DNA from: an uncultured Opitutia bacterium | GTDB taxonomy: Bacteria; Verrucomicrobiota; Verrucomicrobiia; Opitutales; Opitutaceae | Reading direction: 5' to 3' | NCBI GenBank assembly: GCA_903869665.1 | Contig: CAIPZZ010000103.1 | Coordinates: 1 to 42,580, forward strand | DNA: 42,580 nt | Shown here: in pieces, positions 2,210 through 36,254 of the stretch | Position numbering within the stretch: position 1 is the stretch's first letter | Layout: every line of letters begins with the position of its first letter | The notes under the pieces: generated by a model | Database searches by the model: none | What the model was told of the DNA's origin: nothing | What the model saw: the letters and a program-made list of their open reading frames with translations, nothing else | Program-made: the position numbers and the translations under genes

Positions 2210-3346
2210 ATGAAAAAACTTGCCCTTAGCCTCGCCGTCAGCGCCGTCCTTGCCGGCAATTGCTTCGCCGCGACCAAAATCGGCGACACCGGAGCCTCCC
2301 TCAGCCTGACCGGTAACGTCGGCATCAGCTATGATGACAACCTGCTTCAGGCCGAGACTGCCAAGCTGAACGACACCATCTTCTCGTTTTCCCCCGGCTT
2401 GGAGGTTCAGTTCGACAAGGCGGGCACCACTGTTCTCAGTTTCAAAGAGGAGTTTAAGCGCTACGCCGACACCAGCGGCCTCGACAGCAATCTGGCCACC
2501 GCCTCATTCCGCTCGAACATGACCAGGGGCAGCGACACGGGAAAATTCAACGCCAGCTACACCCAGACTAACAATAACACCCCGGTCTCCGGCGTGCCTG
2601 GTCTGCTGCGCCGCAACAATATCTCGGTCGGCGGCAGTGGTGAGTGGGAGATTGTCCCGGTGAAGCAGAAATTCGGTCTCGGTGTGAGCTATGACGACAC
2701 CGATTACAACCAGACCACGCTCGCTGACAGCAAGACCTACACCGTGCCGGTGAACTACTATTACGAGATCAATCCGAAGCTGTTTCTCAGCCCCGGTTTC
2801 ACCTACCGTAAAACAAATCTTAAGACACCCTCGACCGGGGCCAAGACGGATTACACCGATTACAAATACAGCATCGGTCTCCGTCAGGATGAGCTGACGA
2901 CTGTCAAGCTTACCGGCAATTTTAGCATCGGTCTGAATCACCGCACTCCTGATGTCGGCAAGAGCGAGTCGTCGTTCAACCTTGATTCCAGCCTCAATTA
3001 CGCCGCCAGCGAGAAGACCAGCTACAATCTAACCCTGAGCAACGATTTCGGCCAGTCCTCGGTGGGCGCTTCGCAGAAGACCCTCCGCATCGGCGGCGGC
3101 GTGAACCACGCGATTGACCAGAAATGGAGCACGGCTGCCAAGGCCAGCTACAGCCAGACCGACTACACCGGCGCCCGCAAGGATGACTACTGGGATGCAA
3201 ACCTCTCCCTCGATTGGAAAGGCCTGAGCTCCTATTATGGTCTCACGATCGAGCTCTCTTACGGCTACAAAAACAACTCCTCCAATGTCGCTGGCTCCAG
3301 CTACAATGGCAACACGATCGGTTTGACGGCCAGCGCGCGGTATTGA
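2210..3346 (+). CDS. Outer-membrane beta-barrel protein of an exopolysaccharide locus
   Basis: This encodes 378 residues with a signal peptide (MKKLALSLAVSAVLAGNCFAA). The rest is a succession of alternating polar/hydrophobic strands rich in Tyr, Asn, Ser and Gly, for example GNVGISYDDNLL, FGLGVSYDDTDYNQ and GLTIELSYGYKNN, and it ends in an aromatic residue (SARY), the usual signal for outer-membrane insertion. The N-terminal strand followed by YDDNLL resembles the EpsL/BBP2-type barrels found in exopolysaccharide clusters (family knowledge, not searched). It lies between the Ala-rich gene and the Wza-like gene, so a role as outer-membrane pore or adaptor for polymer release is likely. A strong terminator hairpin follows it. 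The start is the only reasonable one for the signal peptide. Confidence 0.8.
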   Translation: MKKLALSLAVSAVLAGNCFAATKIGDTGASLSLTGNVGISYDDNLLQAETAKLNDTIFSFSPGLEVQFDKAGTTVLSFKEEFKRYADTSGLDSNLATASFRSNMTRGSDTGKFNASYTQTNNNTPVSGVPGLLRRNNISVGGSGEWEIVPVKQKFGLGVSYDDTDYNQTTLADSKTYTVPVNYYYEINPKLFLSPGFTYRKTNLKTPSTGAKTDYTDYKYSIGLRQDELTTVKLTGNFSIGLNHRTPDVGKSESSFNLDSSLNYAASEKTSYNLTLSNDFGQSSVGASQKTLRIGGGVNHAIDQKWSTAAKASYSQTDYTGARKDDYWDANLSLDWKGLSSYYGLTIELSYGYKNNSSNVAGSSYNGNTIGLTASARY

Positions 3347-3471: not shown

Positions 3472-4125
3472 ATGAGTCCTCTCGCCCTCCCTCTCCGCCT
3501 CGCTGCCTTGTTCGCGCTTCCCTCTCTGCTCGTCGCTGCGGATGTGGCCGCTCTCGCGAAACCCGCCAGCTTGGCAACACCCCCGGCCGAAGGCGCGGCG
3601 TCCTCGGATTACACCTTGCTACCTGGCGACGCCATCTCCGTCACCATCCTCGGGGAGGACGGCTTGAGCAACCAAATGAAGCTTCTGAAGGTCAGCCCCG
3701 AGCACACGATCCGGGTGACCTATTTCGAGGACACCCCGATTAACGTCAGTGGCAAGACCCGCTGGCAGTTGGAGAACATCATCACCAATCTCTACAAGCC
3801 CGACTACCTGAAGCAGCCGAAGGTTTCGGTTCAGATGGTTAGCTACGCGCCGCGCAAGGTGAACGTCATCGGCCAGGTCAACTCCCCCCACGAGGTGCAG
3901 TTTCCCCCGGAGAAGGGGCTTAAGCTCATAGACGCCATTACCCAATGCGGTGGTTTTACCCGCTTGGGCGATGACAAGCATGTGGTGCTCACGCGCGTCA
4001 TGTCCGATGCAACCAAGAAAAACTATACCATTGACGCGAGGAAGCTGACCGGAGCCAAGGAAACCGGCGGGGTGGACGACTGGCCGCTCCAGCCTGACGA
4101 CATTATTTTTGTGCCAGAAATCTGA
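3472..4125 (+). CDS. Polysaccharide export protein, Wza/SLBB type
   Basis: This encodes 217 residues. The start at 3472 gives a signal peptide (MSPLALPLRLAALFALPSLLVAA); the frame is open upstream through the terminator, but that part is not protein-like. After a short linker comes a Poly_export domain (SSDYTLLPGDAISVTILGED at about 44-63), then an SLBB-like domain (KVNVIGQVNSPHEV, with the glycine-rich LIDAITQCGGFTRLGDD), ending in QPDDIIFVPEI as is typical. Family members form the periplasmic/outer-membrane channel for capsule or EPS export with a Wzz-type partner, which is the next gene 12 bp downstream. There is no lipobox cysteine and no C-terminal transmembrane helix, so it may rely on the neighbouring barrel for the outer-membrane passage (inference). 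Confidence 0.9.
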   Translation: MSPLALPLRLAALFALPSLLVAADVAALAKPASLATPPAEGAASSDYTLLPGDAISVTILGEDGLSNQMKLLKVSPEHTIRVTYFEDTPINVSGKTRWQLENIITNLYKPDYLKQPKVSVQMVSYAPRKVNVIGQVNSPHEVQFPPEKGLKLIDAITQCGGFTRLGDDKHVVLTRVMSDATKKNYTIDARKLTGAKETGGVDDWPLQPDDIIFVPEI

Positions 4126-4137
4126 CCACGGACCACC

Positions 4138-6441
4138 ATGAGCTCCAACTCCCCCAAACAATCCCGCTCCGGCGGCGACCACGGCTACGGTTACGGCGGC
4201 GGCTCGTCGGGCTACGGCGGCTATGGCGGTTACGGCGGCTATGGTTACGGGGGCTATGGGTATGGCGGCTACGGCTACGGTTCGAAACGCGAGGGTGGCC
4301 TGCAACGCAGCCTACAGGACTACCTGCTCATCCTACGCGAGCGCATCTGGTATATCATCGTGGTGTTTCTCGTGGTTTTCTCCTCCGCGCTGGTTTATAC
4401 CCTCAGCCAGCAGAAAGTTTACCGGGCGATGACCACGATGCAGGTTTACCGGCGCGCGCTGAGCACGACGGGCAAGCAGGGCGATCAGGTCATGTCCACC
4501 GCCAACGATGTCACCAGCGCCGATGATTTGAACACCATCCTGAGTGTATTCACCAGCGCGAGCGTGCTCGAGCAGGTGGTGCCGCAGATTTCCGGCAACG
4601 ATCTGCGTCAGTTCATGGCCCCTTATGATGTGGGCGGCTCGCCGACCGGCGTGCCCGACATTCTCAACGACAACCGACGCGTGGCGCTCCGCCGCGGCAC
4701 CCTCATGCTCGAGGTGACCTACACCCACCCCGATCCGGTGGTGGCCGCCAAGGTGTCCAACCTGTTCGCGGAATCATACATCGCCTACCGTAAGAAAAAA
4801 AATATCGAGGCGAACGTGCAGAGTGCGGGTGATCTCCAAATCACGGTGAAATCTGAGACGGAGAAAGTGGACCGAAAGAACCAGGAGATCAGCGACTTTC
4901 GCTCGAAACATGGACTTGCCGTGGCAGGCGGGAATTACGACCTCATCAACGCCAACCGGCAAGTGCTCAACACCAATGAGGTGAGTGCCCGAGTGCAGCT
5001 CTCCGCCGCCGAAACCCGCGCCCAGCAGATCGAGAAGCAGCTCAAGGAGGGGAAGAAGCTGACGGATCTCTCGTATTTCTCGAACCACCCGGCCATCGCG
5101 CCTCTGATCCAGAGAATTCGTGAGACCAACATCCTTATCAGCCAGTTGTCGGAAAAATATGGCGACCTCTGGCCTGACCTGAAAACCGCGAAACGCACGC
5201 TGGCGACGACCCAAACGGAACTGGACAGCGCTGTGGACAGCGCCGTGAAGCAATATGATTCGGAGTATGCCACCTATCGGAGCACATGGGAAAAAGCCAA
5301 AAATGCGGTGGATGCTGCCGATACCGAGGCGAAAAATCTCGATGCCTTGAAAAAAGATTACGAGCAGATGACGCGTGACTTTGCGCTCATGAACAAGTCG
5401 TTGGAGGACCACAAGCAACGGCTGGCGGAGATTGTAAACGCTCCGTCCCTTGAACTCGATCAGGTCGTCCTGATGGACACCGCCAAGCCACCGCCGATGG
5501 AGGCCTTCGTCTCCCCCAACTACACCGTCAATCTCAGTCTCGGTGTCGCCGCCGGCCTCGGCCTCGGTCTCGTGTTCGCATTTTTCGTGGCCTACATTGA
5601 CGACCGGGTGAAGAGCTCGTTCGACATCGAGTCCGTCGTCGGCCTGCCGCTGATCGGGATCATCCCGGCGATCAAAAAAATGGAGCAGCCCGACAAGGCG
5701 CAGGTCGTCGCCAACAACGCCGACCGGCAGGTCTCGGAGGCGTTTCTCGCGCTGCACTCCGCGCTCCGGCTCAAGGACGAGAGCAAGAACGCCCAGTGCA
5801 TCCTGACCACCAGCACCATCCCCGGCGAGGGCAAGTCCTTCGTCTCGACCAATCTTGCCCTCACTTTCGCGGCTCACGGTGAGCGCGTGCTCATCATTGA
5901 TTGCGACCTGCGAAAGCCGAACATCCACAAGTCCTTCCGTCAGGAGAATCTTAAGGGCGTCATTGATGTCATCGCCGGTGCCGCGACGATTGACGACGTG
6001 ACGATCAAGCAGCTGCATCCCAACCTCGATGTGATGACCAGCGGTGGTCGCGCGAAGAACCCGACGCAAATCCTCAATAGCAAAAAATTTGAGATCATGG
6101 TCTCCGAGCTCCGCAAGCGTTATGATCGGATTTTCTTCGATACACCGCCGCTCGCCGCGGTGAGCGACGCGCTCATCATCCTACCGCTGATGGACGGCTC
6201 GCTGTTCTCGATCTTCTTCAACAAGGTGCGTCGCAAGGCCGCGCAGTTCGCGGCCAAGAAGCTGCTCGAAGCGAACGTCCCGGTTTACGGCGCCATCCTC
6301 AACGGCCTCAACCTCGCCGTCTCCGGCTACTACTACGCCCAATACTACGACAAATCTTACAAGGATTACTATGTCGTGATGTCCAAGGGCGACGGCAACG
6401 CCCCCGCCGCTGCTGCCAGCAAGCCGCCCGCCGACGAGTGA
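4138..6441 (+). CDS. Chain-length determinant fused to bacterial tyrosine kinase (Wzz/BY-kinase) with Gly/Tyr-rich head
   Basis: This encodes 767 residues. A Wzz domain has TM1 at about 70-89 (IWYIIVVFLVVFSSALVYTL), a long periplasmic coiled-coil region (about 210-420) and TM2 at about 465-487. A cytoplasmic BY-kinase follows: Walker A STIPGEGKSFVSTN near 559, Walker A' IIDCDLRKP near 585 and Walker B IFFDTPPL near 663. The C-terminus has a tyrosine cluster (GYYYAQYYDKSYKDYY, about 731-746), the usual autophosphorylation site. Such proteins control polymer length and export in Wzy-type EPS/capsule systems together with the Wza-like protein encoded 12 bp upstream. The oddity is residues 14-48, an almost pure Gly/Tyr repeat before TM1 that is not part of the normal family layout. 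It is a single polypeptide rather than the split CapA/CapB form. Confidence 0.93.
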   Translation: MSSNSPKQSRSGGDHGYGYGGGSSGYGGYGGYGGYGYGGYGYGGYGYGSKREGGLQRSLQDYLLILRERIWYIIVVFLVVFSSALVYTLSQQKVYRAMTTMQVYRRALSTTGKQGDQVMSTANDVTSADDLNTILSVFTSASVLEQVVPQISGNDLRQFMAPYDVGGSPTGVPDILNDNRRVALRRGTLMLEVTYTHPDPVVAAKVSNLFAESYIAYRKKKNIEANVQSAGDLQITVKSETEKVDRKNQEISDFRSKHGLAVAGGNYDLINANRQVLNTNEVSARVQLSAAETRAQQIEKQLKEGKKLTDLSYFSNHPAIAPLIQRIRETNILISQLSEKYGDLWPDLKTAKRTLATTQTELDSAVDSAVKQYDSEYATYRSTWEKAKNAVDAADTEAKNLDALKKDYEQMTRDFALMNKSLEDHKQRLAEIVNAPSLELDQVVLMDTAKPPPMEAFVSPNYTVNLSLGVAAGLGLGLVFAFFVAYIDDRVKSSFDIESVVGLPLIGIIPAIKKMEQPDKAQVVANNADRQVSEAFLALHSALRLKDESKNAQCILTTSTIPGEGKSFVSTNLALTFAAHGERVLIIDCDLRKPNIHKSFRQENLKGVIDVIAGAATIDDVTIKQLHPNLDVMTSGGRAKNPTQILNSKKFEIMVSELRKRYDRIFFDTPPLAAVSDALIILPLMDGSLFSIFFNKVRRKAAQFAAKKLLEANVPVYGAILNGLNLAVSGYYYAQYYDKSYKDYYVVMSKGDGNAPAAAASKPPADE

Positions 6442-13195: not shown

Positions 13196-14008
13196 TCACC
13201 CGTGCAGGTTGATGGCCGCGAAGGCGGCGCGGTCGGCCTCGGTCAGGCCGCGCGCGGGTCGGTAGGCGAGCACGTCGGCGTCGCCGATGGCGGCCCAGCC
13301 CTCACGCTTGGCGACGGCGCAGTTCTCAGCCTCGACCACTTCGAAGCCCTCGTGGCGAAGGCGCGCGCAGCAGGCCTCGTGTAGCGCGGGCGTGTGCGTG
13401 GCGAGGACGATTGCGAGTTGCGGCTCGCGCGCGAGCAGGCCGGCCGCGCCTTCGAGCACGTCGAGCTCGGCACCCTCCACGTCAATTTTCATCACGGACG
13501 GGGCGGATGCGGTGCCGGCGGCAATGAGCGCGTCCACATTTTTCACCGGCACACGCAGGCCCTCTCCGCCGAGGTGGCAGGCGAGCGTCGAGCCGCGTTT
13601 TTGCAGCGCGGGCAGCGTGGCGGCGGCGTGATCGCGGTCCCAGCCGAAGGACATCTCGCCCTCCGCCCGGCCCATCGCCCAGGGGAACACGGTGGCGTTG
13701 GTGACGCGGTTCCATTTCAGGTGCAGCCCGATGAACTCGCGGCTGTCGGGATTGGGCTCGAAGGCGAAGACCTTGCCCGCCGGGCCGACCGCCCGTGACT
13801 CGACGAGCACGGTGAAGCCGCGGTGCGCGCCGACGTCCCACACCGTCTCGCCGGGGCGGATGAGGCGCTGGAGAAACGCGGCCTTGCCGCGCACAAAGTC
13901 ACCGCGCAGGTAGCGTGCGCCGGTGGCGACGCTCCACCAGCGGCCTTGGTTAGCCCCGTGGCGGATGGGCAGGCGGAGGCGGCGCAGGATTTTTTTGAGC
14001 GGTGACAT
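13196..14008 (-). CDS. FkbM family methyltransferase
   Basis: This encodes 270 residues. It has a class I SAM-binding fold with motif I VWDVGAHRGF (56-65), the acidic-loop FEPNP (83-87) and the FkbM-typical KIDVEGAELDVL (174-185). Such enzymes usually O-methylate sugars or related small molecules and are common beside glycosyltransferases. The N-terminus is basic (KKILRRLRLPIRHG), possibly membrane-associating. It follows the GT2 gene with only 3 bp between them, so the two form an operon and probably modify the same glycan. Confidence 0.9.
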   Translation of the reverse strand: MSPLKKILRRLRLPIRHGANQGRWWSVATGARYLRGDFVRGKAAFLQRLIRPGETVWDVGAHRGFTVLVESRAVGPAGKVFAFEPNPDSREFIGLHLKWNRVTNATVFPWAMGRAEGEMSFGWDRDHAAATLPALQKRGSTLACHLGGEGLRVPVKNVDALIAAGTASAPSVMKIDVEGAELDVLEGAAGLLAREPQLAIVLATHTPALHEACCARLRHEGFEVVEAENCAVAKREGWAAIGDADVLAYRPARGLTEADRAAFAAINLHG

Positions 14009-14011
14009 GGT

Positions 14012-14815
14012 TCAAGTTTCGCCAACGTGTTTGGTGTTTTCCGCGCGTTCCCCGGGCGGCAGCAGGTTCTCGTAAAGCCGCGCGTGACGGGCGAAACAAG
14101 CGTAACCTGCGGTCGCGGCCACGAAAAGGCCGGCGAACCCGTCGAGAAAACCGAGTCGCACGACATAGCTGCGGAAAAACCGCCAGCCGCCGCGCAACGC
14201 CGCCGCCCACGCCGCCGAGGCGGGTGACACGGCCCGCCGGTGGCGCGCGAAATAGTCGGCCTGGCGGTTGATGCGTGCGACGAAGCTGCGCGTGTCGGGG
14301 TAGCCGTGGTGCAGCAGGTCGCCGCGCAGGCGGACAACACGGCCCTGCGGTTGGATGACGGTGTGATACGGATCGCCGCCCCAGCGGCCGGCACCGCGCC
14401 GCACGAGCCGGAGCACCCGGTCGGGATACCACTCGCCGTGGCGCACCCAGCGGCCCAAGAGCTTCGTGCAACGTGGAATCTCCGCGCCGGCTACGCCGGC
14501 GGGCGGCGCGGAGAGAAAGAGCTCCAGCTCGGTGCGCAGTGGCGGCGAGACCTCCTCGTCGGCGTCGAGGGCGAGCACCCAGGGCTGTGTGCAGCGGTCG
14601 AGCGCGAGGTTTTTCTGCGTGGCGTAGTCCGTCCACGGGTGCTCGTAGACTAGCGCACCCGCCTCGCGGGCGACGGCCATGGTGCCGTCGCGGCAGTCGT
14701 TGACGACCACGACCGCCTCGGCCGTCCAGCCGGCAACCGACCGCAGGCAACGGCGCAGGTTGGCCTCCTCGTTGCTGGCGATGATGGCGACGCTGAGCGG
14801 CAGTGGCGCGGGCAT
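14012..14815 (-). CDS. Family 2 glycosyltransferase, WaaE/KdtX-like
   Basis: This encodes 267 residues. A GT-A fold begins at the N-terminus (LSVAIIASNEEANLRRCLRSVAGW), has VVVNDCRDGT, then ATQKNLALDRCTQPWVLALDADEEVS with the metal-binding DxD at 84-86. Later parts (RWVRHGEWYPDRVLRLVRRG, HHGYPDTRSFVARINRQADYFA) match the family of LPS-core GT2 enzymes such as WaaE/KdtX. A hydrophobic stretch occurs near the C-terminus (WAAALRGGWRFFRSYVV). It is expected to add a sugar to lipopolysaccharide core or a similar surface glycan at the inner membrane. The acceptor is unknown. Confidence 0.9.
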   Translation of the reverse strand: MPAPLPLSVAIIASNEEANLRRCLRSVAGWTAEAVVVVNDCRDGTMAVAREAGALVYEHPWTDYATQKNLALDRCTQPWVLALDADEEVSPPLRTELELFLSAPPAGVAGAEIPRCTKLLGRWVRHGEWYPDRVLRLVRRGAGRWGGDPYHTVIQPQGRVVRLRGDLLHHGYPDTRSFVARINRQADYFARHRRAVSPASAAWAAALRGGWRFFRSYVVRLGFLDGFAGLFVAATAGYACFARHARLYENLLPPGERAENTKHVGET

Positions 14816-14910
14816 GGCGTGATGGTTGAACGCCCGCCCCGCGTGGCAAGGCGGAAGCGCGGCGCGATGTTGCCTTGGCTCGCCGCCCGGGCCTAGCCTC
14901 GGCCCGACCC

Positions 14911-15873
14911 ATGCGCCTCCGCATCAAATTCGCCGACTTTTATCCCAGCCTGGATCCGCAGGACAATTTTTTCACGCGCCTGCTGCGCCGCCGCCACGAG
15001 GTCGAGGTGCGGCCTGACGCGGAACACCTTATTTTCTCCCGCTATGGCTACGATTTCCTCCGTCATGACGGCATCCGTATCTTTTTCACGGGGGAGAACG
15101 TCCGCCCTAACTTTGATCTCTGCGACTACGCGCTGGGTTTTGATCATCTCGCCTTTGGCGACCGCCACCTGCGCCTGCCGGTCTACCGAATCTATGAGGG
15201 TGCCTACCGCGCCGCGCTCGCGGCCGAGCCGGTCACGTCCGAGGCCGCTCGACGGAAATTTTGCAGCTACGTCGTCTCCAACCGGCGCGCCTCGCGCGCC
15301 GACTCCGCGCGGGTGCAAATGTTCCAAACGCTCTCGGCCCACCGGCGCGTCGAGTCGGGCGGCAAGCAGTTCAACAACGTCGGCGGCCCGGTGGCCGACA
15401 AGCTCGCGTTCCTGCGTGGCTGCAAGTTCAACATTGCCTTCGAGAACGCCAGCACGCCCGGTTACCTGACCGAGAAGATGATCGAGGCCAAGGCCGCCGG
15501 CACGGTGCCCATCTATTGGGGCGACCCGCTCGTCGCGGCGGAGCTGAACCCGCGCGCCTTTGTCAACTGCCACGACTTCCCCGACCTCGACGCCGCCGCT
15601 CGCCGGGTGATCGAGCTCGACGGCGACGACGCGGCCTACCTCGCGATGCTCGCCGAGCCGATTTTTCCCGGCGGCGTCGAGCCGGCGGAGCTGAGGGAGG
15701 AACGGCTACTGGATTTTTTCGAGCACATCTTCGCTCAGCCGGTGGAGCAGGCGTATCGCCGCGTGCGCTCCGGACGTTGGGGCCGCCGTGCGGAGAAGGA
15801 ATACCGCCGCGTCGCGCGCTTTGACCTCAAATACCAGACCGAGCGGCTGAAACGCTGGCTGGGAGGACGGTGA
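14911..15873 (+). CDS. Family 10 glycosyltransferase (alpha-1,3/4-fucosyltransferase-like)
   Basis: This encodes 320 residues from ATG 14911 (MRLRIKFADFYP). The GT10 hallmark is at about 173-206: NIAFENASTPGYLTEKMIEA followed by AAGTVPIYWGDP. The upstream RIFFTGENVRPNFDLCDYALGFD also fits the bacterial GT10 N-terminal half. These enzymes move fucose from GDP-fucose to GlcNAc or Glc residues, but related sugars are possible. The C-terminal tail is basic (RRAEKEYRRVARFDLKYQTERLKRWLGGR), as in bacterial GT10 proteins that associate with membranes. It is divergent from the GT2/FkbM pair by 95 bp. Confidence 0.92.
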   Translation: MRLRIKFADFYPSLDPQDNFFTRLLRRRHEVEVRPDAEHLIFSRYGYDFLRHDGIRIFFTGENVRPNFDLCDYALGFDHLAFGDRHLRLPVYRIYEGAYRAALAAEPVTSEAARRKFCSYVVSNRRASRADSARVQMFQTLSAHRRVESGGKQFNNVGGPVADKLAFLRGCKFNIAFENASTPGYLTEKMIEAKAAGTVPIYWGDPLVAAELNPRAFVNCHDFPDLDAAARRVIELDGDDAAYLAMLAEPIFPGGVEPAELREERLLDFFEHIFAQPVEQAYRRVRSGRWGRRAEKEYRRVARFDLKYQTERLKRWLGGR

Positions 15874-33257: not shown

Positions 33258-34666
33258 ATGTCCGGCAAGAAACTCCTGCTCCTCGCCCTCGCCGCGCTCG
33301 CGCTGCTGCTCGGCGGCGCGTTTCTGCTCTGGAACGAGGGCACCAAGGCCGACCTCGAGGCCGCAGGCAGCGACTGCGCGACGCGCACCTGCCAATGACG
33401 GTGGACGACATCCGCCCGCCGCCCGTGCCGGATGCGGACAACGCCGCGCTCGTCCTCGAAAAAATCGCGCCGCTGCTTAGGGCGCTGCCACAGGTTGACG
33501 GCAAAGATTTTCTTATGTGGTTCGGCGATTTCCAATCGAAGCATAAGGAACTGCATCTCGACGCGACCGCGACCAAGGAGTTAGGCGACCAGCTCGACTC
33601 GCCGCCCGTGCAGGCCGTGCTCGCGCTCATCCGCGAGGCGGCGGGCAAGAAGGAGTTCAACAGCAACACAGATTATTCGAGAGGACCGCAGCTGTTCCGT
33701 TACATCAGCCCGTTACAGCAATCAGCCAAACTGCTTGGCGGACACGCCCGCTTGGCTGCCAGCCGGGGGCAGTCTGGCGAGGCCGCAGCCGATGTCTGGG
33801 CCATGACGTCCTTGGCCGAATTTCCGGCCAAAGAGCCACCGGCGCTGATTACTCTGCTCACGCGGGTCGCGATTTGGGGCATCACGACGGCTGAGATGGA
33901 ACGCTTGGCGGTAACCGGCGACCTCGCACCTGAGTGGAACCAAAAATTTTCCGCCCGACTCGCGGGCATCAATCTCAGCGCCGATTTGGTCCGTGCGTTT
34001 GATGTCGAGCGGATCGTGTTTGGGTAACAGACCTTCGACCAGCTGCTCGCGGGAACATATGATTTGGCCAATGATGTTGGTAAACCGGATGGCTGGAGAG
34101 ACTGGAAAAAATGGGTTCGCCTTCAGGCTTACCGCTTGCCGGGTGTGATCAGATCGGAAAATGCCGATTATCTTGATTATATGCGCGTGTTTCGAGCCGC
34201 CGTGGCGGCAGGAGCCCAAAATCGCGAAGCACTGGAGCGCCGGCTTGGAAACGTGGCGTCCAATTCGCCGGGAGGTTTGATCTTAGAGGTTCTCGTTCCC
34301 ACTTTAGAAGCGCTGAGCAAAAATGTCCTGCTGCGGTCGCACGAGAGACTCACTGTTGTCCAAGTCGGCCTCGCGATGGAGCGCTATCGCGCAGCGAAGG
34401 GCGGCTATCCGGCGGCGCTGTCCGACCTGGTGCCGGACTTCATCAAGGAGGTGCCACCTGACGTGTTCACGGGCAAGCCGCTACTCTACCGCACCGAGCC
34501 GGGCGGCGCGGTCATCTACAGCGTCGGCAAAAACCTAAAGGACGACGGCGGTATCGATGATATGGACGCTGACAAAGACGACATCAACTGGGCCTCCGGC
34601 GCGGCGGCCGCGCGCAAGTTCACCCCGCCGCCTCCCAAGCCCTCCGGCGCGGACGACGAGCCGTAG
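33258..34666 (+). pseudogene. Hypothetical exported or membrane protein gene with a frameshift and an in-frame TAA
   Basis: The start at 33258 encodes an N-terminal hydrophobic segment (MSGKKLLLLALAALALLLGGAFLLW). At about 33360-33363 the frame shifts by one base, and the coding sense continues as RRQRLRDAHLPMTVDDIRPPP. It meets TAA at 34025-34027 (RIVFG-stop-QTFDQLLAG) and continues in the same frame to 34666. The last part (SGKPLLYR-like GKPLLYRTEPGGAVIYSVGKN, then DDGGIDDMDADKDDINW) is a type of C-terminus seen in uncharacterised Verrucomicrobia proteins. Function unknown. It lies 54 bp after the broken barrel gene, so the pair may have been an operon. Confidence 0.75.
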
Positions 34667-34712
34667 CGCCTGTCTTTCCCGTGCCACGGCGAGTCACCCC
34701 GGAGCGGTTTCC

Positions 34713-34760
34713 GACCTGCGACCTGCGACCTGCGACCTGCGACCTGCGACCTGCGACCTT
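34713..34760. repeat. Heptamer tandem repeat GACCTGC
   Basis: Six perfect copies of GACCTGC (34713-34754), then GACCTT, between the broken gene and the MATE gene 3' end. Its length may vary between strains. Confidence 0.95.
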
Positions 34761-34771
34761 CAGACTTCTGC

Positions 34772-36166
34772 TCACATCCCCGCGATCTGCGCCGCCTCGG
34801 CCTCGGAGTCCTGCGCGACATGGTCGCGGGCCTTGGTCGCGGTTTTCACCCAATGCCGCTGCTTCCAGCGGCGGCGCATCATCAGGCCGCGTAACCATTC
34901 GTCGAGGGCCATTGTCAGCCAGATGCCATGCAGGCCGAGCGGCGTGTGCAGGCCGAGCAGCCACGCCAGCGGCACCCACACGCACCACATCGAGAACGCG
35001 CCCATCGCGATGGGGAACCACACGTCGCCCGTAGCCCGGAGCGAGTTGATCACGACAATGTTGAACACCCGTCCCGGCTCAATGAGGATGCCCAGCAGCA
35101 TCAGTTGCACGCTGAGACCGCGAATGGCGGGGTCGTCCGTGAACTGCCCGGCGATGACCGGCGCGCACGCGGCCACGATGAGGACCGCGCCGAGCGCGAG
35201 GAGGATGCCGAGGCGGAGATTTTTGAGCAGCGTGTGATACGCCTCCTCCAGCCGCCCCGCGCCGACGAGGTGGCCGATGACGATCTCCGTGCCCAGCCCG
35301 AGGGAGAGGCTGAAGATGATCACGAGGCGCTGCAGGTTTTGTGCGACCGCCTGCGCGGCCTGCGCTTGTCCGCCCAGCTCTTTCACGAAGCTCGTCACCA
35401 CCATAAGCGCGCCGAGGTAGCAGAGGTTCTCCCCCGCCGCCGGCAGGCCGATGCGGAGCACGCGACGGAGCTGGTTCCAGGAGAGCACGAAAAAATCCCG
35501 CACGCGCAGCCGCAGTTGCGTGCGGCGGTCGAGCAGGATCCAGAGCGCCACACACGCGCACGCACGGCTGAACACCCCCGAGAGCGCGACGCCCGTCACG
35601 CCCATGTGTGGCGCGCCAAACAGCCCGAAGAGCACCACGCAGTTTCCCGCGAGGCTCAGCACGCCCTGCCCACCGAGCACGACCATCGTGTCACGCGTAT
35701 GCCGGTGCGCACGGAGTGTGGCGGCGATCGCCATGTTCATCGCGTCGAGGAACAGCATCCCGCCCACGATCCGCAGATAAGGCTCGCCGTGGGCGACGAG
35801 GCTTGCGTGGACGTTGAGCGCCAGCAGCGGCCCCGCGAGCAGCCACAGCGCCAGACTCGTGGCCGCGCCCAACCAGGTGCAGGCGGCGATGGCGGTGGTC
35901 GTGATGCGCGCCGCGCCCGCCCGGTCGCCCGCGCCAAGATGGTGAGTGATGACCACGCTCGCGCCGATGGCGATGAAGTTGAACACCGTCCAACCCGTGT
36001 AGATCCACTGGTTGGCCCCGCTAAGGGCCGCCGCCGCGCCCACCGACACCGCGCGACTGACCATCAGCGCGTCCACGATCACGATGAGCATGCGCAGGCC
36101 CTGCTCGACGAAGATGGGCCACGCGATGGTGAGGAGGCCGGTCTTGGGCTGGGCGGGTGCGCTCAT
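34772..36166 (-). CDS. MATE family efflux transporter
   Basis: This encodes 464 residues from ATG 36166 (MSAPAQPKTGLLTIAWPIFVEQ). About 12 transmembrane helices are arranged in two similar halves. The first half has ITTTAIAACTWLGAATSLALW and GMLFLDAMNMAIAATLRAHRHTRDTM; the second half has GLPAAGENLCYLGALMVVTSFV, SLSLGLGTEIVIGHLVGAGR and NIVVINSLRATGDVWFP, typical of MatE domains. Such proteins export cationic drugs or metabolites using Na+ or H+ gradients. The substrate is unknown. The C-terminus is soluble and charged (RRRWKQRHWVKTATKARDHVAQDSEAEAAQIAGM). Confidence 0.93.
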   Translation of the reverse strand: MSAPAQPKTGLLTIAWPIFVEQGLRMLIVIVDALMVSRAVSVGAAAALSGANQWIYTGWTVFNFIAIGASVVITHHLGAGDRAGAARITTTAIAACTWLGAATSLALWLLAGPLLALNVHASLVAHGEPYLRIVGGMLFLDAMNMAIAATLRAHRHTRDTMVVLGGQGVLSLAGNCVVLFGLFGAPHMGVTGVALSGVFSRACACVALWILLDRRTQLRLRVRDFFVLSWNQLRRVLRIGLPAAGENLCYLGALMVVTSFVKELGGQAQAAQAVAQNLQRLVIIFSLSLGLGTEIVIGHLVGAGRLEEAYHTLLKNLRLGILLALGAVLIVAACAPVIAGQFTDDPAIRGLSVQLMLLGILIEPGRVFNIVVINSLRATGDVWFPIAMGAFSMWCVWVPLAWLLGLHTPLGLHGIWLTMALDEWLRGLMMRRRWKQRHWVKTATKARDHVAQDSEAEAAQIAGM

Positions 36167-36254
36167 GCGGTGCAAAAGCGGTCAGCATACCGCTCGCGCC
36201 CGGCGGGGTGTCAACGGCGGCGCGAACGGAGTGACAGACGGGATACAAATTTTT

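Follow-up and report, generated by a model that had tools for sequence, protein, structure and literature searches.

What is a run of almost nothing but glycine and tyrosine doing at the front end of a bacterial tyrosine kinase? The question is raised by a gene of an uncultured Opitutia bacterium of the family Opitutaceae (GenBank assembly GCA_903869665.1); the window analysed here is positions 1 to 42,580 of contig CAIPZZ010000103.1, forward strand. A preliminary description of this DNA placed the tract at residues ~14-48 (4180-4284) and offered it as a further kinase substrate, a self-association segment or a contact to partner proteins. The tract is indeed there in frame (Table 1); counted on the translation, it consists of 20 Gly, 11 Tyr and 2 Ser.

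The same description called the protein a tyrosine kinase with a C-terminal tyrosine cluster, and both points are borne out. Pfam domains are Wzz (PF02706, residues 58-150, 29.8 bits against a cut-off of 25.5) and AAA_31 (residues 563-672), and TIGR01007, the polysaccharide tyrosine autokinase domain model, scores 148.5 bits against a cut-off of 108.05. Walker A, A' and B motifs, the Wzz part between two membrane helices and the C-terminal cluster are further BY-kinase features that it has. An AlphaFold model built with 77 sequences (mean pLDDT 77.4, pTM 0.39) has full-length Escherichia coli Wzc (7nhr) as its top PDB match in Foldseek (E 4.9e-25). Solved kinase domains match it with TM-scores of 0.72-0.86 of target, and the low TM-scores against full-length Wzc reflect relative domain placement. 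The organism's own genome (assembly 89% complete) yielded a single kinase of this type.

Table 1. Features of the kinase and of the two genes upstream of it, in window coordinates
Feature	Residues	Position	Strand	Basis
BBP2_2 outer-membrane beta-barrel		2210..3346	+	Pfam
Wza-like outer-membrane polysaccharide export protein (Poly_export + SLBB)		3472..4125	+	Pfam; start 3472 inferred, signal-peptide-like sequence
BY-kinase / Wzc-type polysaccharide co-polymerase	767 aa (stop included)	4138..6441	+	Pfam, NCBIfam, Foldseek
Polar N-terminal leader of head (Ser/Lys/Arg)	1-15	4138..4182	+	Translation
Gly/Tyr head tract (31/33 Gly/Tyr, 11 Tyr)	16-48	4183..4281	+	Translation, predicted disorder, clade conservation
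Cytoplasmic helix alpha1, linking head to membrane helix 1	59-68	4312..4341	+	AlphaFold helix
Membrane helix 1	70-90	4345..4407	+	AlphaFold helix, hydrophobic sequence
Membrane helix 2 and cytoplasmic end	462-493	5521..5616	+	AlphaFold helix
Walker A, TIPGEGKS	560-567	5815..5838	+	K566 in 87/87 family proteins
Walker A', IIDCDLRKP	586-594	5893..5919	+	D588, D590, R592, P594 in 87/87
Walker B, RIFFDTPP	664-671	6127..6150	+	D668-T-P-P in 87/87
C-terminal tyrosine cluster, YYYAQYYDKSYKDYY	731-745	6328..6372	+	Same sequence in 76/87 distinct proteins

The head is part of the protein. Translation starts at the ATG at 4138; the in-frame TGA of the upstream gene lies at 4123, 15 nt upstream, no start codon intervenes, and the first in-frame start after the ATG is a GTG at residue 75, within membrane helix 1. 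A later start that leaves the repeat untranslated, a possibility raised in the preliminary description, was rejected: starting at residue 75 would wreck the membrane anchor. With no usable alternative, the head must, as the gene reads, be translated. The argument rests on this absence of another start because Shine-Dalgarno support is weak, with a purine motif at the expected place in 23/87 relatives against 13% in shuffles. Since the kinase domain follows membrane helix 2, head and kinase are placed on the same cytoplasmic side; the AlphaFold model thus agrees with the earlier placing of the tract in the cytoplasm before the first membrane helix.

In the model the head is disordered: residues 1-60 have pLDDT 32-48 per ten-residue block, and residues 1-56 are below 50. 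The leaders of relatives are likewise polar, with Lys, Ser and Asp. Behind the tract comes a well-kept region, with D61, Y62, R67 and E68 of alpha1 and the adjoining R69 invariant in 77 kinase sequences. The last head tyrosine precedes the position chosen as the start of the core by a mean of 4 residues and never by more than 10; in the window protein this position is eight residues before the helix at 59-68.

The tract is more than chance would give. Of 471 control ORFs (at least 250 aa, from 80 related loci), 3 had a 20-residue stretch holding 10 or more Gly/Tyr and 3 or more Tyr in their first 60 residues, and all three were the same kinase slipping the filter. A partner carrying a matching tract and acting in trans was sought in the own genome with YGGYG- and GYGYG-coding patterns, and none was found: the five YGGYG sites are all in the kinase head, as are four of the six GYGYG sites, and the other two GYGYG sites were rejected, being in unrelated ORFs with signal-peptide-like N-terminal stretches. 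TRF marks the DNA under the tract as a degenerate 9/15-bp tandem repeat (score 74, 81% matches), and the head version of the window's genus is among the longer and most repeat-like ones. A separate repeat in the window, CGACCTG in 6.9 perfect 7-bp tandem copies (34712-34759), lies between an ORF ending at 34666 (+) and an opposite-strand transporter-like ORF (34772-36175) and is probably intergenic.

How widely the head occurs was surveyed in the family, order, class and phylum of the organism. Some relative of the kinase is present in 177/200 family genomes. The named related loci (80, mostly from Opitutaceae and Opitutae assemblies) include those of the cultured relatives Geminisphaera colitermitum TAV2 and IMCC26134, the latter a complete genome. 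From 110 related loci, 107 with an N-terminus gave 87 distinct proteins, and every one of these has 3-12 head tyrosines (mean 6.4) in a head of mean length 36; outside the head, Tyr makes up 3.0% and Gly 4.4% of residues. Heads as short as 28 and as long as about 90 residues occur. In the other families of the same order, 20/20 orthologs have the head. Twenty low-identity family members, 12 of them new, were picked to find exceptions, and here heads shrink, to two tyrosines in L208 and L210 and to three in L211 and L218, the last two of which fail the strict Gly/Tyr rule. L105 is another clade member with three head tyrosines. Over 120 distinct clade members from this one bacterial order, 118 have at least three head tyrosines, which answers the suggestion that relatives might lack the head, and 113 pass the strict Gly/Tyr-rich rule (84/87, 8/12 and 21/21).

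Beyond the clade the head is scarce: it was seen in 2/20 class-level relatives (L152, L168), 0/20 phylum-level relatives and 0/19 members of the sister paralog clade. Among 20 distant family relatives that were read, 19 were such headless paralogs and one (L148) was a headed clade member. To the preliminary description a head of this sort was unfamiliar among standard family members, and in these wider samples that largely stands; it does not stand within the one clade, where the head is the norm. A tree of 105 kinases groups 46 kinases as a single headed clade (SH-aLRT 99) in which no member is without a head. Its neighbour is the headless clade of 19, and L152 and L168 are headed but fall outside; three gains or losses of the head are needed. 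This tree was made by a quick method with no mixture model and left out the low-identity members L208, L210, L211 and L218, whose heads are low. The Gly/Tyr heads of L168 (SSYGSYGAYGTYGGYG) and L152 (SGYGGYGYGYTGAYGY) are possibly independent gains; these two kinases point either to multiple losses or to the head having arisen more than once. Judged from these sequences, the head is an old, retained property of the kinase clade and not a quirk of the window protein.

The tyrosines were followed through 33 independent close pairs of headed kinases. The head as a whole drifts, with identity 0.71 against 0.86 for the core and 130 gap columns against 49, though it makes up ~5% of aligned columns. 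Its tyrosines are kept all the same, 182 of 208 aligned (0.875), compared with 0.871 for core tyrosines. Codons at identical head residues are synonymous in 313 cases and identical in 447; the synonymous fraction is 0.41 in the head and 0.44 in the core, equally free. When a core tyrosine changes it mostly becomes phenylalanine (62/101), whereas only 1/26 head changes do so (Fisher P = 5e-8), a difference that the uncertain alignment of the fast-evolving head may inflate by adding non-Phe changes. The 107 heads together hold 754 Tyr, 13 Phe (one of them inside a tract) and no Trp; the family core has 1977 Tyr to 2190 Phe. Head composition is 29.5% Gly, 18.5% Tyr and 10.4% Ser, with aliphatic residues nearly absent. 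Spacing is uneven as well: compared with within-tract shuffles, Tyr-x-Tyr pairs are enriched (265 against 179, z 9.5) and Tyr-Tyr pairs depleted (34 against 186, z -15), z-scores that are descriptive, as the shuffles ignore the shared ancestry of the sequences. The motif YAGY[SADN] recurs in 31/87 family heads.

A demand for the tyrosine hydroxyl would be the simplest reading of Tyr-not-Phe. On a tyrosine kinase, phosphorylation would be the obvious use of that hydroxyl; hydrogen-bonded self-assembly would use it too. Phe-free Gly/Tyr tracts are also found in self-associating proteins, and for this reason the signal is no proof of phosphorylation. A trade-off between head and tail was looked for and rejected: across 120 clade members the number of head tyrosines is uncorrelated with that of the C-tail, the latter taken as a window count (Spearman -0.09, P = 0.35), and within the family alone the coefficient is 0.19 (P = 0.06, n = 99).

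BBP2_2, the Wza-like gene and the kinase make up a three-gene module in which the kinase comes last. Among the 110 related loci, those that extend far enough to judge have a Wza homolog directly upstream of the kinase in 89/89 cases and the beta-barrel in 60/60. The gene after the kinase is FeoB on the opposite strand, and no glycosyltransferase or phosphatase gene adjoins the kinase in the window. Genes for an FkbM methyltransferase, a GT2 glycosyltransferase and a FucT-like fucosyltransferase occur at 13196-15873, beside seryl-tRNA synthetase and ~7 kb from the export module. No LMW-PTP gene was found in the kinase loci; elsewhere in the own genome there are four Pfam matches, and in two of these the active-site motif is clean. 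L176 and L177, similar LMW-PTP genes from separate contigs of this genome, are candidate eraser phosphatases. The own genome has one Wzy_C match over cut-off and no CpsB-type phosphatase.

E. coli Wzc, a PCP-2 protein (PDB 7nhr; series 9exo, 9exq, 9i2q, 7nib), is the natural comparison. Profile similarity is strong (E 9.8e-50), and both proteins have a Wzz-type periplasmic part, two membrane helices, a kinase domain and a tyrosine-rich tail; the window kinase adds the N-terminal Gly/Tyr head. It is a relative and not a member of the Wzc equivalog, scoring 111.1 of 1068 bits with NF008568. The ring-interface motif known as EX2RX2R corresponds to residues 534-540 (5737-5757), which read E-x-x-L-x-x-H in most family members: E534 is present in 87/87, position 537 is Leu in 82/87 and Arg in 4, and position 540 is His in 85/87, so that the arginines of the motif are mostly replaced. 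E-x-x-R-x-x-H occurs in several kinases from other families of the order, independent of the head. The motif is not taken here as strictly defining for a BY-kinase, because the headless paralogs are also without it. That the head substitutes for a lost EX2RX2R interface was considered and rejected: headless paralogs are without the arginines too, and the headed L152 and L168 keep them.

A cryo-EM study of Wzc (PMC11986026) bears on the head. It describes how each tail reaches into the active site of the neighbouring protomer and how its tyrosines are phosphorylated one after another, with Tyr-x-Tyr proposed as a ratchet pattern. The octamer becomes looser as phosphates accumulate, and alpha1, which directly precedes membrane helix 1, touches the tail-bearing helix and relays the signal to the periplasm. 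The contact includes an ion pair, D28-K701, and a pocket residue, E675, is proposed to reject phosphotyrosine (same study). In one profile alignment E675 falls on Ala701 of the window kinase (6238-6240), invariant in 77 sequences, and K701 on Ala727 (6316-6318), while D28 is matched to E68 through a weak 1.4-bit segment. The tail ratchet or its coupling may differ from that of Wzc in this clade.

CpsD of Streptococcus pneumoniae is, like the window kinase, a BY-kinase with a Gly/Tyr repeat as tyrosine cluster, (YGX)4, to judge by the title of Morona 2003 as cited in PMC4574921. The CpsD repeat is a C-terminal tail; the repeat described here is N-terminal, is spaced mostly YGY and YGGY and not strictly YGX, and accompanies a C-tail of different, Tyr-dense sequence. 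Measured against a CpsD-type (YGX)n cluster, the window kinase thus has the Gly/Tyr repeat at the other end of the protein. The headless paralogs of the same bacterial family (L131-L147, L149, L150) are BY-kinases of ~30% identity; where the headed clade has its head, they mostly have a Pro-rich leader of 15-30 aa with 0-1 Tyr, and most have a C-terminal Tyr cluster like EYYSNYRYYRSYKKYY, a basic tail near the protein end that is little changed across genera. Similarity to the XrtA/PEP-CTERM exopolysaccharide kinases is detectable (TIGR03018, E 1.8e-33; TIGR03007, E 1.3e-18), with scores far under the curated cut-offs (115.7/230.65 and 66.6/278.85 bits). Composition and predicted disorder are what the head offers for an analogy with a FUS-like Gly/Tyr sticker domain, a disordered tract capable of reversible self-assembly. 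No description of such a BY-kinase head was found in the open-licence papers searched, which is not proof of absence; as a second, N-terminal Tyr-rich tract on an otherwise known type of kinase, it is new as far as that literature shows.

We tentatively favour, with a little less than even confidence, the reading that the head is a second tyrosine cluster, at the N-terminus, which adjacent kinases in the ring phosphorylate and which tunes ring assembly. We infer ring assembly, head phosphorylation and its effect as follows. The head would act as a disordered, nearly Phe-free cytoplasmic arm with Tyr-x-Tyr spacing, anchored to alpha1 just under the membrane. In a presumed octameric ring, eight such arms (~88 Tyr in the window protein) would dangle next to the active sites and the C-terminal tails, flexible and within plausible reach of those sites. 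Neighbouring protomers would then phosphorylate head tyrosines in trans, like the C-terminal tail, and the negative charge loaded at the junction of alpha1 and tail would help to time the disassembly and re-formation of the ring; the eraser would be an unlinked low-molecular-weight (Wzb-like) phosphatase. Consistent with this are the retention of the head through the clade while its length and exact sequence drift, its absence from sister and phylum-level relatives, the Tyr-specific constraint and spacing, the ratchet and alpha1-tail contact reported for Wzc in PMC11986026, the CpsD title as precedent for a Gly/Tyr site, the intact Walker motifs and the two good LMW-PTP genes. Other points tell against it. 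The head has neither the Tyr-Tyr runs nor the charged residues typical of the C-tail, and is not simply a copied tail; its tyrosine number does not follow the tail's; clade members with shrunken heads exist; the D28-K701 pair and E675 do not carry over cleanly; and both the alignment and the ancestry caveats given above apply to the constraint and spacing results.

The main rival makes the same arm a self-association head. Arms of different rings would stick through weak Tyr-Tyr and Tyr-Gly contacts and gather export machines into patches on the inner membrane, and phosphorylation would act as a switch that dissolves them. The Gly/Tyr/Ser composition, few aliphatic residues and predicted disorder suit such a role, as does a tract that keeps its tyrosines through wide changes in length and exact sequence. 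Phenylalanine, however, would be expected to serve partly as a sticker and is nearly absent, several heads are short with only 4-5 Tyr, and the tract is unique in its genome, where no second sticky partner was found; we consider this possible but rather unlikely. In a bolder version, which seems to us improbable, export patches under the inner membrane would form as gels of arms from many rings, and the kinase, by phosphorylating its own arms and tail together, would melt the patch and also open the ring; if true, this phospho-dissolvable glue would put clustering and polymer length in a whole bacterial order under one switch.

It is likewise improbable that the head is a docking site for a polymerase, glycosyltransferase, phosphatase or cytoskeletal factor, with tyrosines serving as contacts and phosphorylation unneeded. 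The conserved BBP2-Wza-kinase module and the recurrent YAGY[SADN] motif would fit a dedicated contact, but exact head sequence is poorly kept outside subclades, the kinase loci are without an LMW-PTP gene and the partner is only hypothetical. A neutral low-complexity spacer made by DNA repeat slippage, already disfavoured, is very unlikely. The recognisable 9/15-bp repeat under the window tract and the gap-rich heads speak for slippage, yet most relatives keep Gly/Tyr with no simple protein-level repeat, tyrosines are retained under free synonymous change, and the head persists in nearly all clade members where the sister clade mostly has its Pro-rich leader instead.

On a membrane enzyme that controls sugar-polymer export, the head probably serves the kinase itself as a second target or contact surface. 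Regulation of Wzc is modelled with a single tyrosine-rich tail per subunit, the C-terminal one; an entire clade is now seen to carry another tyrosine arm at the opposite end, attached to alpha1, the helix by which E. coli Wzc relays its phosphorylation state across the membrane (PMC11986026). The headed clade is a natural experiment in how the amount and the location of phosphorylation govern ring stability and polymer length, with the headless paralogs of the same family as ready-made controls.
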